Positions 6,498-12,759 of a DNA stretch of 15,682 nt are shown here, piece by piece. The stretch comes from Chloroflexota bacterium. Its GTDB lineage: Bacteria; Chloroflexota; Anaerolineae; Caldilineales; Caldilineaceae. The notes under the pieces are model-generated. The model was given only the letters and a program-made list of their open reading frames with translations, ran no database searches and was not told where the DNA came from. Position numbers and translations under genes: made by a program. The stretch lies in the NCBI GenBank assembly GCA_003577005.1, contig QEUW01000154.1:1-15682 (forward strand). The letters are read 5' to 3'. The stretch's first letter is position 1, and the number at the start of each line of letters is the position of its first letter.

Positions 6498-7163
6498 ATG
6501 AGCCATCAATTCTGTACCCAGTGCGGTGCGCAACTGCCTGAGGAGGGCAATTTCTGCCCGCAGTGCGGCGCGCCCCTGGCGCGACCGGCTGCCCAGCTGG
6601 TGGACCCTGTGCCCGCCGCACATGCTGCGAGCGGTGGACCCGTGCGCCCGGGGCGGCGCTCCTTGCTCGTGGGGCTGGCGATCTTCGCCGGTGGGGTGTT
6701 GCTGAGCGCACCGGTGTACTACTGGGGCCTCCGTCCCAATCTGACCGAGGCGCGACCCAACGGCGTAACGGACTCACCGCCGGCCACGCGCACCGCGCTG
6801 CCGGACGTGCATGACGAACAAGGCATCCCCTATCCGGATGTGCCGCGCCTGGCGCTGGCCGACGCCAAGGCGCGCTTCGACACCGGCAGTGCGCTCTTTG
6901 TGGATGTGCGCGACCGGGCGTCGTATGCCGAGAGCCACATTCCCAACAGTCTCTCACTGCCGCTGAACGAAATCGAAGCTCGTGCTCAAGAACTCCCCAA
7001 AGAGGCCGAGATCCTGACCTACTGCACTTGACCCAACGAAGAATCGAGCGCCCGTGCGGCGCTCATCCTGCAGGAACTTGGCTATACGCGTGTGGCGGCG
7101 ATGCGCGGCGGGCTGCAAGGCTGGCAAGCGCAGGGCTACCCGACGGCCGTAGGCCAGCCCTAA
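6498..7163 (+). CDS. Predicted selenoprotein: zinc ribbon, TM helix and CxU rhodanese domain
   Basis: Read through an in-frame TGA at 7029-7031 as selenocysteine, this encodes 221 residues. A zinc ribbon (C6/C9 and C20/C23) precedes an Arg-bounded TM helix (about 54-77), then a rhodanese domain (about 110-216) with DVRDR at 136-140 and MRGGLQGW at 202-209. The TGA is residue 178 in YCT-U-PNE; Cys relatives read YCxCPNE there, so U replaces the second Cys two residues after the rhodanese catalytic Cys (C176). The reading frame stays open and conserved after the TGA (SSARAALILQELGY) to TAA at 7161. A SECIS-like hairpin lies at 7046-7064. I chose ATG at 6498, with AAGGG at 6487-6491; a GTG at 6459 overlapping the upstream stop would add 13 residues. 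The topology predicts the ribbon inside and the rhodanese outside. Rhodaneses carry sulfane sulfur on Cys; a Cys-Sec pair could form a selenenylsulfide. A nonsense mutation is the alternative, made unlikely by the hairpin and intact downstream frame. Confidence 0.85.
7046..7064 (+). promoter_or_regulatory. Predicted bacterial SECIS element of the rhodanese gene
   Basis: A perfect 7-bp stem, GAGCGCC (7046-7052) with GGCGCTC (7058-7064), encloses the loop CGTGC (7053-7057). Twenty-one bases separate the TGA (7029-7031) from the loop. Published bacterial SECIS rules ask for an apical loop of 3-14 nt with a G in its first two bases, and a UGA-loop distance of 16-37 nt; this hairpin meets both. 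In known systems the hairpin recruits SelB carrying Sec-tRNA. Confidence 0.8.
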
Positions 7164-7173
7164 GGACACGGCG

Positions 7174-7989
7174 ATGCGTGCAGCGGAGGTGACGGCGCAA
7201 CAGGCGCAGGCGGATACAACGCACCGGAGCCAGACAAGACCCCACCGGCGCGAGTTTTGGGAAGTCGACGCACTGCGCGGTCTGGCCGTGGTCATGATGG
7301 TGGTCTACCACCTGATGTACGACCTGGACTTCTTTGGCGTCAGCGATGCGATCTTCACGCACCCCTTCTGGTTCTATTTTCAGCGCACCACAGCCTCCAC
7401 CTTTCTGCTGCTGGTTGGGGTCTCGCTGCGCCTGCGCTACCGCAAGGACCTCGCGCGCCACGGCCGGGTGGCGTACGCGCCGTTTGTGCGCCGAGGCGCG
7501 ACGATCTTCGGGTGGGGGCTGGTGATCACGGCTGTGACCTGGGGGGCGCTTGGCGCGCAGTGGGCGATCCGCTTTGGCATCCTGCACTTCATCGGCCTGG
7601 CGACCCTGACAGCCTATCCGTTCCTACGCTGGCGCTGGCCCAACCTGCTCCTGGGCCTGCTCTTCCTGGCTGTGGGCAAGATGCTGCAGACGAAGACCTT
7701 TGATCGGCCTTGGCTGGTGTGGCTGGGCTTTGAACCCGCCGGCCATACCTATGTGGATTACTTCCCCTTTATCAAGTGGTTTGGCGTGGTGCTGCTCGGC
7801 ATCTTTGCCGGTAGCCTTCTGTATGGCGACACGGGACGGCGCTTTCCGTTCCCGAACCTGACGGCTTGGCCGCCGGTGCAGGGGCTCCAATGGCTGGGCC
7901 GCCGCGCTCTGCCCATCTATCTGCTCCATCAGCCGCTGTTGCTGGCGCTGCTCTTTGGCGTCTTGGCCTTAGCCGCGAGACAGCCCTAA
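7174..7989 (+). CDS. DUF1624 membrane protein (heparan-alpha-glucosaminide N-acetyltransferase-like)
   Basis: A 271-residue polytopic membrane protein. After a polar N-terminus of about 27 residues, the motif EVDALRGLAVVMMVVYHLMYDL (from residue 30) with H46 marks the DUF1624/YeiB-HGSNAT-like family. It is followed by FLLLVGVSLRLRY (77-89), FGILHFIGL (134-142) and a final YLLHQPLL (249-256, H252). Seven or so TM segments are expected. HGSNAT itself transfers acetyl groups across the lysosomal membrane to glucosamine; the substrate of the short bacterial DUF1624 proteins is not established. ATG at 7174 has AAGGA at 7162-7166 overlapping the upstream stop, so it should be co-translated with the rhodanese selenoprotein. 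The redoxin selenoprotein begins 28 bases after its stop. Its position between two predicted extracytoplasmic selenoproteins suggests a shared membrane-face function, which is inference only. Confidence 0.85.
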   Translation: MRAAEVTAQQAQADTTHRSQTRPHRREFWEVDALRGLAVVMMVVYHLMYDLDFFGVSDAIFTHPFWFYFQRTTASTFLLLVGVSLRLRYRKDLARHGRVAYAPFVRRGATIFGWGLVITAVTWGALGAQWAIRFGILHFIGLATLTAYPFLRWRWPNLLLGLLFLAVGKMLQTKTFDRPWLVWLGFEPAGHTYVDYFPFIKWFGVVLLGIFAGSLLYGDTGRRFPFPNLTAWPPVQGLQWLGRRALPIYLLHQPLLLALLFGVLALAARQP

Positions 7990-8017: not shown

Positions 8018-8581
8018 ATGAAACTCAATGCTCTTCTGCAACTGATAACAGCAGCCGTGGCGCTGGTTCTACTCGGGCTATCGGGCTGTGCCTCCCCGGC
8101 CCCGGCCGATAGCCCGCAGGCTCCGGCCTTTACACTGCCCGCGGCCGATGGCAGGATCGTGGAGCTGGCAGACTACGTGGGTCAGAGACCCGCGCTGCTC
8201 TATTTCCACATGGCCGTTGGCTGACCGCCTTGCCTCGAGCAGATCGTGGATCTGCAAAATGACCCGGACTTTCAAGCACTGGACGTGGCCTTGGTCAGCA
8301 TTGCCACCGATTCTCCGGAGCAGTTGGCCGCAGCGGCACAGGAGTATGGCATCACAGATGTCCCGTTGCTCACAGACGAAGGGGCCCAGGTATCCGAAGC
8401 CTATGATGTCATGCAGTGGGCCACTCCGGGCGGCGAGCCGAGCCACACCTTTGTGCTGGTGGATGAGGATGGCTCCATTGCCTGGGTACAGGACTACGGT
8501 TCGCCGCAGAATCGCGGGGTGATGTATGTGGAACCCAGCGAGCTCGTAGCCGAAATCAGCAGCCGGCTCCAGGACCGGTAA
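8018..8581 (+). CDS. Predicted selenoprotein: UxxC redoxin (AhpC/TSA-like) lipoprotein
   Basis: With the in-frame TGA at 8222-8224 read as selenocysteine, this encodes a 187-residue thioredoxin-fold lipoprotein. The signal peptide (residues 1-23) ends in the lipobox LSGC (21-24), so C24 is predicted to be lipidated. The redoxin domain starts at PAFTLPAADGR (36-46). The active site is FHMAVG-U69-P-P-C72-LEQ, where relatives of the AhpC/TSA-redoxin type have CxxC. The frame continues with normal family sequence (DVALVSIATD, a HTFVLVDEDG strand) to TAA at 8579. The TGA is followed by a perfect SECIS-like hairpin at 8239-8255. I prefer ATG at 8018, with AAAGGA at 8006-8011; an ATG at 8003 lies upstream of that ribosome site. 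The predicted function is extracytoplasmic peroxide reduction or thiol-disulfide exchange with a selenenylsulfide intermediate. Conventional gene calling would split it into two fragments (8003-8224 and 8246-8581). Confidence 0.88.
8239..8255 (+). promoter_or_regulatory. Predicted bacterial SECIS element of the redoxin gene
   Basis: A perfect 7-bp stem, GCAGATC (8239-8245) with GATCTGC (8249-8255), encloses a GTG loop (8246-8248). Twenty-one bases separate the TGA (8222-8224) from the loop, the same as in the rhodanese gene, and both stems begin 15 bases after the TGA. The G at the first loop position and the spacing fit bacterial SECIS rules. Confidence 0.82.
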
Positions 8582-11101: not shown

Positions 11102-11122
11102 GATGCGCCGCCAAGGCGCATC
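11102..11122 (-). terminator. Hairpin at the end of the Met-rich gene
   Basis: GATGCGCC (11102-11109) and GGCGCATC (11115-11122) form a perfect 8-bp stem with a 5-base loop, overlapping the stop codon of the Met-rich gene. The minus-strand bases that follow are not a T-run, so factor-independent termination would be inefficient. Partial read-through into the regulator and kinase genes, or 3'-end protection, is more likely. Confidence 0.5.
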
Positions 11123-11501
11123 AGTTGTGCCATCCCATGCCCATCCCAGCGTGCCAGGGACAGCCATAGGTCGAGGTCGTGCCGGTCATGGGTGTCGTCG
11201 TACCCAGGCCATAGCCGCCCATCATGCCCCACCCGTGATGGGGATGCCCATAGCTGGTGGTGTCTGTCGTCGGGGTGGTCGCCCCAAGGCCAGAGCCCAT
11301 CATACTCCCCATCATACCGTGGCCACCCATCATAGGGCTACCCATCCTGTGGCCGCCCATCATGCCGTGGCCTGCCCAGTTCCCCTGCGGGATCGTACCT
11401 TGGGCCTGCACAGTGCCGGTGAGCAGCGCGCCTGCCAGTAAAACTGCGACCAGCACAGCGGCGCTGATGGCCAGCCAGCGTTGCGTGGTGTAGGTGTTCA
11501 T
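11121..11501 (-). CDS. Secreted Met/His/Gly-rich probable metal-binding protein
   Basis: A 126-residue protein with a signal peptide (residues 1-33, hydrophobic 11-29, ending VQA before QG). The mature part is built of Gly, Met, His and Thr: GHGMMGGHRMGSPMMGGHGM from about 44, then GWGMMGG and AGMGMGWH. By my count it holds 14 Met and 8 His, plus one Cys (C114). Two related spacer blocks (GLGATTPTTDTTSYG at 71-85, GLGTTTPMTGTTSTYG at 98-113) show an internal duplication. Met-motif proteins of this type bind Cu(I) or Ag(I) in known systems; no exact family is recognised. ATG at 11501 has GAGGAG upstream. It is transcribed toward the regulator and kinase, and the kinase sensor loop has the same composition, so it is probably an output or periplasmic metal buffer of that system. 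Confidence 0.85.
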   Translation of the reverse strand: MNTYTTQRWLAISAAVLVAVLLAGALLTGTVQAQGTIPQGNWAGHGMMGGHRMGSPMMGGHGMMGSMMGSGLGATTPTTDTTSYGHPHHGWGMMGGYGLGTTTPMTGTTSTYGCPWHAGMGMGWHN

Positions 11502-11647: not shown

Positions 11648-12133
11648 TTACCCTGCCGCGTGTGCGTGGCGCAAGCTCAAGAGCAGCCAGAGTCCCAGAC
11701 CGAGCAAAATGGCCGAGTCGGCTAGATTATAGGCGGGCCAGCGCCATGCGCCTACCCCCATGTCGAGATAATCAGTCACACGGCCGTCCACCAGCCGGTC
11801 CAGGAAGTTGGCAACCGCACCGCCCAGCGCCAGCCCTAAGGCGAGCGGAGCGAGCAGGCCAAAGCGCCCCTGGCGCACCATCTGCCCCGCCCACACTCCC
11901 AGGGCCACGATGATGCCACCGCTGAGCAGCAAGAGGGATATGCCGCCACTTCTCAACAGCCCAAAGGCGACACCCGGGTTGTAGGTCAGGGTCAGCCGCA
12001 AGCTGTCGCCAGCCAATGGCAGCAGTTGGTACGGCTCGAGCCAGCGTTCGATCCGAGCCTTCACCACCACATCGGCGACCAGCACTGCGAGCACGACCAG
12101 TGCGAAGAGGATGAATTTGCGCATGTTTGTCAT
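11648..12133 (-). CDS. lspA: Signal peptidase II (lipoprotein signal peptidase)
   Basis: A 161-residue LspA, close to the usual 160-170. It is an aspartyl protease with four TM helices that cleaves the signal peptide of lipid-modified prolipoproteins. The conserved blocks are present: D21 in TM1, YNPGVAFG (51-58), GGAVANFLDR (104-113), RVTDYLDM with catalytic D121, and YNLADSAI with catalytic D139. ATG at 12133 overlaps the stop of the upstream remnant by ATGA, so it is translationally coupled; an ATG at 12124 is a possible alternative, and neither has a good ribosome site. LspA-like proteins are known in heavy-metal operons (for example PbrC of the lead operon), so this copy is probably an accessory lspA of the resistance cluster, although a housekeeping role cannot be excluded. 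Two genes in this window encode predicted lipoproteins that need such an enzyme. Confidence 0.93.
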   Translation of the reverse strand: MTNMRKFILFALVVLAVLVADVVVKARIERWLEPYQLLPLAGDSLRLTLTYNPGVAFGLLRSGGISLLLLSGGIIVALGVWAGQMVRQGRFGLLAPLALGLALGGAVANFLDRLVDGRVTDYLDMGVGAWRWPAYNLADSAILLGLGLWLLLSLRHAHAAG

Positions 12134-12759
12134 AGAGAGTATGGCTCAGGGCTGGGCCATCGCAAGCAGCTTGATCCGCTCACTAGGCCACCACTCAAGC
12201 GTGGAATAACTCTTCCTGTTCTATCCATGTAAGCTCGATACGCTTCGCCGAACTGATCAAGCATCATTTGCTCTTCATACCCCACCCGCTGGGAGTAGAG
12301 CAGGGCGAACGACGCCAGACCAGCCACGGCCACGATCCAGTTCCACAAGGCTTGGGCGATGCCCAACAGCCAACCGAACGTATACATCGGGTCCCGGATG
12401 TATCGGTAGATGCCGTTCGTGACGAGCTGGTACCTCTGCCGCAGTTGGACCGAGTTCGACCAGTTTCATCCAAGGGCGGCGTGGGTGCGCCACAACCCCC
12501 AGAAGCCGATCCCGAAGATCGCCGCCCCCGTCCAGTCCGCCCAGGATGAAGGCCAGTAGTCGGCGAAACTCAGCCACGGCGTGAAGATGTAGATGGTTGC
12601 ATCAGAGGCTTTCTCCAAGGCGTTCGCGAGCAGACCGTTCGAGTCAGCCAGGATGCCTGTCGCTGCCAGAGATGTCACAAGCAGTAGATTGAGCACCAAG
12701 ACGATCCAGAGAATTCTACGCTGTTCTAAAACGGCAACATGTGGCTCGAGTTTATTCAT
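12130..12759 (-). pseudogene. Chimeric remnant: CDF transporter N-terminus joined to isoprenylcysteine methyltransferase, interrupted by TGA
   Basis: One minus-strand frame runs from ATG 12759 to TGA 12130 with a single internal TGA at 12468-12466. Residues 1-57 look like the N-terminus of a CDF cation exporter (RRILWIVLVLNLLLVTSLAA, then ADSNGLLANALEKASDA at the TM2 metal site). From about residue 58 the sequence switches to an isoprenylcysteine carboxyl methyltransferase-like (ICMT) membrane protein (WRTHAALG-stop-NWSNSVQL, QLVTNGIYRYIRDPMYTFGW, VGYEEQMMLDQFGEAYRAYM). Relatives carry Arg at the stop position (GRNWS), so a CGA to TGA transition explains it. The usual RHPMY is RDPMY here, and the protein has an odd C-terminal tail of about 20 residues after the normal RTGRVIPRL end. 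The start lies 7 bp from the ATPase stop. The likely history is loss of the DNA between adjacent CDF and ICMT genes, then decay. Translation from the downstream ATG at 12387 would give only a fragment. Confidence 0.8.

Follow-up and report, generated by a model that had tools for sequence, protein, structure and literature searches.

A predicted membrane-anchored zinc-ribbon rhodanese shortened by automatic annotation at a TGA that very probably encodes selenocysteine

Two genes with an in-frame TGA

The window, that is the whole stretch of 15,682 nucleotides analysed here, carries on its plus strand a gene (6498-7163) that runs from an ATG at 6498 to a TAA at 7161-7163 (221 amino acids plus the stop) and contains a single in-frame TGA (7029-7031), the proposed codon of selenocysteine 178. 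The start agrees with homologues that begin MSxxFCTQCG, and read-through of the TGA gives ILTYC-T-U-PNEESS. The deduced product combines a zinc ribbon of the form CxxC...CxxC (residues 5-27, 6510-6578; PF13240, 31.9 bits for a cut-off of 25), a predicted transmembrane helix (residues 53-77, 6654-6728), helical in the AlphaFold model and with its most hydrophobic 19-mer starting at residue 55, and a rhodanese domain (residues 121-211, 6858-7130; PF00581, 66.7 bits for a cut-off of 22.2; pLDDT 94-98), the Pfam match to which spans the TGA. This architecture, put forward in the original prediction, is borne out by Pfam and by the AlphaFold model, and the zinc ribbon is common to 28 of the homologues listed by our searches. 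The active-site loop of the rhodanese domain opens with Cys176 (codon 7023-7025), which is invariant in a 46-sequence alignment and stands where the catalytic cysteine of rhodaneses is found. The PF00581 score lies above the gathering cut-off and the loop cysteine is present; the domain may have sulfurtransferase activity. The modelled rhodanese fold is confident, with Cys176 following a strand (172-175) and residue 178 directly preceding a helix (179-193); the spacer between the transmembrane helix and the rhodanese domain is modelled at low confidence. The solved folds closest to the model are 6mxv, 3tp9, 3nhv and 3ilm, with GlpE (1gmx) at rank 22. Ahead of the transmembrane helix, an arginine-rich stretch (PVRPGRR) suggests, by the positive-inside rule alone, an N-in, C-out topology. 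The product would be a single-pass membrane protein, with the zinc ribbon probably cytoplasmic and the rhodanese domain, beyond the one helix, probably outside.

A second TGA-containing gene (8018-8581, plus strand) encodes a predicted lipoprotein of the AhpC/TSA (peroxiredoxin-like) type, which reaches 81.6 bits with PF00578 when read through; the part ahead of the TGA scores 21.6 by itself, below the cut-off of 26. The ORF table gives this gene from 8246 only, and the upstream frame starts at an ATG at 8018. Near its start the product has a lipoprotein-type signal motif, LSGC. The TGA (8222-8224) is the proposed codon of selenocysteine 69 in a U-P-P-C motif (HMAVG-U-PPC). Between the two TGA-containing genes lies a membrane acyltransferase-like gene of the HGSNAT_cat family (7174-7989, plus strand; PF07786, 238.8 bits).

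Three other features of the window deserve mention. At 629-2182 on the plus strand, one ORF fuses cation-efflux and SPFH/Band 7 domains (PF01545, PF01145) and is followed by two SPFH genes. On the minus strand, three short ORFs overlap within 12130-12759 (12130-12387, 12275-12577 and 12466-12759); a stretch of this kind should hold a single gene or a pair, and a frameshift is possible. Also on the minus strand, a small Gly/His/Met-rich ORF (11121-11501) shows by eye GHGMMGG-like repeats after a signal-like start and possibly binds metal.

Coding sequence and homologues beyond the TGA

The 451 TGA triplets of the window, in all six frames, were ranked by the weaker of their two flanking coding signals, provided that 25 or more open codons preceded the triplet in its frame and 30 or more followed it. 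TGA 8222 ranks first and TGA 7029 second, both on the plus strand and both at redox-active positions, while ranks 3 to 5 fall on the minus strand opposite plus-strand genes. Past TGA 7029, the codon signal is 14.2 in the gene's own frame versus -34.7 and -22.8 in the other two. The 43 residues that follow the TGA match the NCBIfam profile NF041203 on their own (E 1.5e-8, profile positions 86-123 of 126) and match Pfam rhodanese with an E-value of 3.9e-4 (21.2 bits, slightly below the cut-off of 22.2). The same tail aligns with that of each of seven homologues tested, namely a TGA-containing gene from a viral contig (L003), P0041 and five cysteine-containing proteins, and every one of these alignments beats all 500 shuffles, with 17-25 identities over 36-42 columns (25/37 for P0041, 21/37 for L003). 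Homology continues in frame towards the TAA at 7161, in line with the original prediction, and this persistence of both homology and codon signal argues for a TGA that is read through as selenocysteine.

Two protein searches, the second of them limited to 7996 scored candidates, gave 48 distinct homologues. By script count, 38 of the 48 listed have YCT or YCA as their very last residues, so that they stop one codon short of the position of the window TGA; these 38 are known from protein sequences alone, not from DNA, and their stop codon may not be TGA. The zinc-ribbon pattern occurs in 28 listed homologues, all of which (28/28) end exactly at YC[T/A]. Such a uniform end is what a conserved short protein would produce, with TGA 7029 as a true stop closing a 177-residue zinc-ribbon/transmembrane product that carries half a rhodanese domain, and with the downstream sequence as a relic. 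Against this, the tail is still in frame, still shows coding signal and still resembles rhodaneses; the break would cut through the active-site loop, and without the tail the modelled domain would lose a helix (179-193), a strand (199-202) and a further helix (205-211). The neighbouring peroxiredoxin gene, moreover, has the same anatomy. We regard a true stop as very unlikely indeed.

The original prediction placed the TGA at the second cysteine of a YCxCPNE loop, and five full-length homologues of the form YCTCPNE (P0023, P0026, P0027, P0028 and P0050) do carry cysteine there and continue beyond it. The expectation of cysteine at position 178 holds for these five; it does not hold for P0041, which has tryptophan at the TGA position and also continues. 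The remaining four homologues (P0046-P0049) are dissimilar or broken elsewhere, and ordinary rhodaneses have no cysteine at the aligned position. The shortening of 38 of the 48 homologues before the TGA, together with cysteine in the five that extend to full length, favours selenocysteine at this position. None of the 28 listed zinc-ribbon homologues is a cysteine form, so the pairing of cysteine with selenocysteine rests on proteins of other architectures. Among the homologues with a named origin are members of the Ardenticatenaceae (P0017) and the Anaerolineae (P0049).

A TGA seen once in one assembled sequence could, taken alone, reflect a nonsense mutation, a pseudogene or a sequencing error. 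This explanation is already contradicted by the homologues: the end position recurs in the 38 shortened proteins, including P0002, which is 99% identical to the window protein and lies on a separate contig, a comparable gene lies 1.2 kb away, and L003 has a TGA at the same place. Its probability is practically negligible.

L003, the one real match in a pattern search of viral-contig DNA that returned three stretches, is a small rhodanese with the sequence YCT-TGA-PNEGSSA. It scores 111.2 with NF041203, slightly below the cut-off of 115. Its TGA is independent of that in the window and its tail is intact, which again argues for selenocysteine. The gene (L003:305-652, minus strand) lies on an IMG/VR contig with ORFs that by eye are recombinase-like and terminase-like, and is possibly a phage-adjacent selenoprotein gene. 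The other pattern stretches from viral contigs (45, 14 and 1) appeared chance-like on reading, two further searches had no yield, and none of the 119 records returned by tblastn against plasmids covers 80% of the rhodanese query. A scan of genome contigs gave two loci (L001 and L002), L002 being an ordinary rhodanese by regex. No TGA-interrupted rhodanese was found among the listed rows of a protein search of 60 relatives of genome G001, where three rows with an internal TGA cover query residues 4-65 only (the zinc-ribbon part), nor among those of an NF041203 search that covered two phyla with 398 genomes apiece. On the Pseudomonadota side of the latter search (phylum inferred), 11 places in 10 genomes were found and YCxCP is present in eight of the nine readable by regex and absent from one; on the Bacillota side (phylum likewise inferred), six places were found, of which the five readable by regex are ordinary rhodaneses with cysteine at that position in none (0/5), and one of the six (L067) has a TAA inside.

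In the peroxiredoxin family too, the break coincides with the TGA, as in the rhodanese family. Among the 120 homologues listed (of 263), 119 are pieces of 104-116 amino acids (56-61% of the query) that lack everything upstream of the TGA; P0051, the piece from the window itself, is one of the 119. The length filter of this search (0.55-1.75 times the query) kept out upstream pieces of 68 residues and would have let full-length cysteine forms through. No cysteine version of the lipoprotein architecture occurs among the homologues listed, and the only full-length entry of the 120, P0052, has tryptophan at the position of TGA 8222. Named origins are Anaerolineae (P0137), Caldilineaceae (P0062) and Anaerolineales (P0167); with those of the rhodanese homologues, they point to a Chloroflexota bacterium as the probable host. 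The rhodanese P0030 and the peroxiredoxin P0112 both have a longest contig of 12997, a hint, no more, of linkage in another genome. That the two TGAs with the best coding signal should hit redox positions, in families that break alike, speaks for the selenocysteine reading.

SECIS-like hairpins and the decoding of UGA

Each of the two TGAs is followed at 21 nt by a SECIS-like hairpin on the plus strand. The one after TGA 7029 (7046-7064) has a 7-bp stem (GAGCGCC/GGCGCUC) with the loop CGUGC, and the one after TGA 8222 (8239-8255) a 7-bp stem (GCAGAUC/GAUCUGC) with the loop GUG; L003 has a 6-bp stem with the loop GUU at 22 nt. The 45-nt fold energy of the rhodanese hairpin is -13.9 kcal/mol, and the corresponding values are -9.6 for the peroxiredoxin and -19.0 for L003. 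The bacterial SECIS model set out in PMC13188914 comprises a loop of 3-9 nt, an upper stem of 4-16 bp, a G among the first two loop bases, a spacing of 16-37 nt and an MFE of -7.5 or lower; the rhodanese hairpin agrees with this version of the model, loose enough to accommodate many chance hairpins too, and the peroxiredoxin hairpin is likewise consistent with it. Of the 449 window TGAs with enough flank, 24 are followed at 14-28 nt by a stem of at least 7 bp with an early loop G. Narrower criteria, chosen after the hairpins had been seen (a stem of at least 6 bp, GU within loop bases 1-3, a spacing of 20-23 nt), select four of the 449, two of them being 7029 and 8222, and not one of the four gene ends in the window that use TGA (0/4). 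Among 5000 synonymous shuffles, the stem was reached in 261 for the rhodanese, 581 for the peroxiredoxin and 604 for L003, and among 2000, an equally good fold was obtained in 196, 272 and 7, respectively. The 66-nt fold after the rhodanese TGA is not unusual (z -0.98; 36/200 shuffles as good). Singly, each hairpin is weakly significant and none is decisive; taken together, GU-loop hairpins at 21-22 nt after both window TGAs and after that of L003 support the selenocysteine reading.

These hairpins also bear on the possibility that UGA encodes a different amino acid, either tryptophan through a change of code or cysteine through an opal-reading tRNA. Tryptophan is listed at the two TGA positions in P0041 and P0052, and a cysteine-inserting tRNA would account equally well for the alignment with cysteine. 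Yet P0041 and P0052 come from contigs of 949 and 902 nt, and we suspect them to be gene calls made with TGA as tryptophan. Both window TGAs, furthermore, fall at redox-active positions, each with its hairpin. The window genes ending at 2182, 3167, 4318 and 6462 stop with TGA, the next in-frame stops lying 4, 39, 7 and 12 codons further on, respectively; TGA is not reassigned throughout, and TGG accounts for 53 codons across nine window genes. Decoding as another amino acid is, in our judgement, very unlikely. The code change, the true stop and the nonsense mutation were all rejected.

Selenocysteine at position 178 would call for selA, selB, selC and selD in the host. No tRNA gene or Rfam match was found within the 15,682-nt window. 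According to PMC4959059, single-cell genomes of Anaerolineales encode selenocysteine-specific translation factors, and Anaerolinea thermophila has a selenocysteine elongation factor; PMC1794560 lists Chloroflexi with three selenoprotein families. The Anaerolineales factors add to the case for a selenoprotein, and the trait is plausible in the host of the window. From the sequence evidence as a whole, we consider it highly probable that 6498-7163 is a bacterial selenoprotein gene in which selenocysteine is inserted at UGA 7029, aided, we propose, by the hairpin 21 nt downstream. Automatic annotation shortens this gene at what is very probably a selenocysteine codon.

Known relatives and a possible selenium-dependent relay

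The best NCBIfam match of the window protein, and of its tail alone, is NF041203 (rhodanese_LYCAU), with which it shares a CxU/CxC pair (C176-T-U178; profile match 19-123 of 126). Its score of 72.6 bits lies below the cut-off of 115, and unlike that family it adds a zinc ribbon, a transmembrane helix and a spacer between this helix and the domain. The 2026 review PMC13188914 lists NF041203 as 'rhodanese-like form 3, CxU' and cites for it Zhang and Gladyshev 2005 (reference 13 there), and a CxU form of COG0607 is listed in the 2022 review PMC9312934. The five cysteine homologues, which are DedA/SNARE-associated rhodanese fusions and a lipoprotein-like rhodanese, have the same YCTxPNE loop and tail but carry cysteine in place of selenocysteine and have other membrane partners. 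Single-domain rhodaneses such as GlpE (1gmx), and YgaP (2mrm, 5hbo), a membrane rhodanese, have the fold and the position of the catalytic cysteine in common with the window protein, whereas their structure listings indicate neither a zinc ribbon match nor selenocysteine. YgaP has transmembrane helices of its own, in a sequence and membrane arrangement that differ from those of the window protein. As for the product of 8018-8581, PMC13188914 lists a UxxC Prx-like thiol:disulfide oxidoreductase (PF00578), with which it shares the AhpC/TSA fold and the UxxC motif; it differs in being a predicted lipoprotein, and none of its ten NCBIfam matches reaches the cut-off.

The CxU rhodanese motif and its presumed chemistry are already known, as NF041203 and PMC13188914 attest. 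What is new is the zinc-ribbon/transmembrane anchor, the lack of a cysteine form among the 28 listed homologues and the neighbouring selenocysteine lipoprotein; in the open literature searched, nothing joins rhodanese and selenoprotein with a zinc ribbon or with Chloroflexota.

As to mechanism, Cys176 might accept sulfane sulfur or be oxidised, after which Sec178 could attack as a resolving selenol to form a selenenylsulfide, which a partner thiol would reduce. We put this CxU relay chemistry at a little under an even chance. The rhodanese may act as an extracytoplasmic sulfur or redox relay, perhaps together with the peroxiredoxin-like UPPC lipoprotein, whose gene is the second one downstream, a partnership that we hold to be rather doubtful. 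A pair of cysteine and selenocysteine in a rhodanese loop raises a testable question, namely whether selenocysteine resolves the catalytic persulfide or a disulfide.

Shortened after the loop cysteine in most of its listed members, the rhodanese family is largely hidden in databases, and the neighbouring peroxiredoxin is without its active site in 119 of the 120 database entries listed. Neither architecture has a cysteine version among the listed homologues, and so the system may require selenocysteine chemistry; our tentative proposal is that Anaerolineae-type Chloroflexota possess a selenium-dependent extracytoplasmic relay with the zinc-ribbon/transmembrane CxU rhodanese and the UPPC lipoprotein as partners. 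If the selenocysteine reading is right, some Chloroflexota would have an extracytoplasmic selenium-dependent redox or sulfur function that has gone unnoticed.
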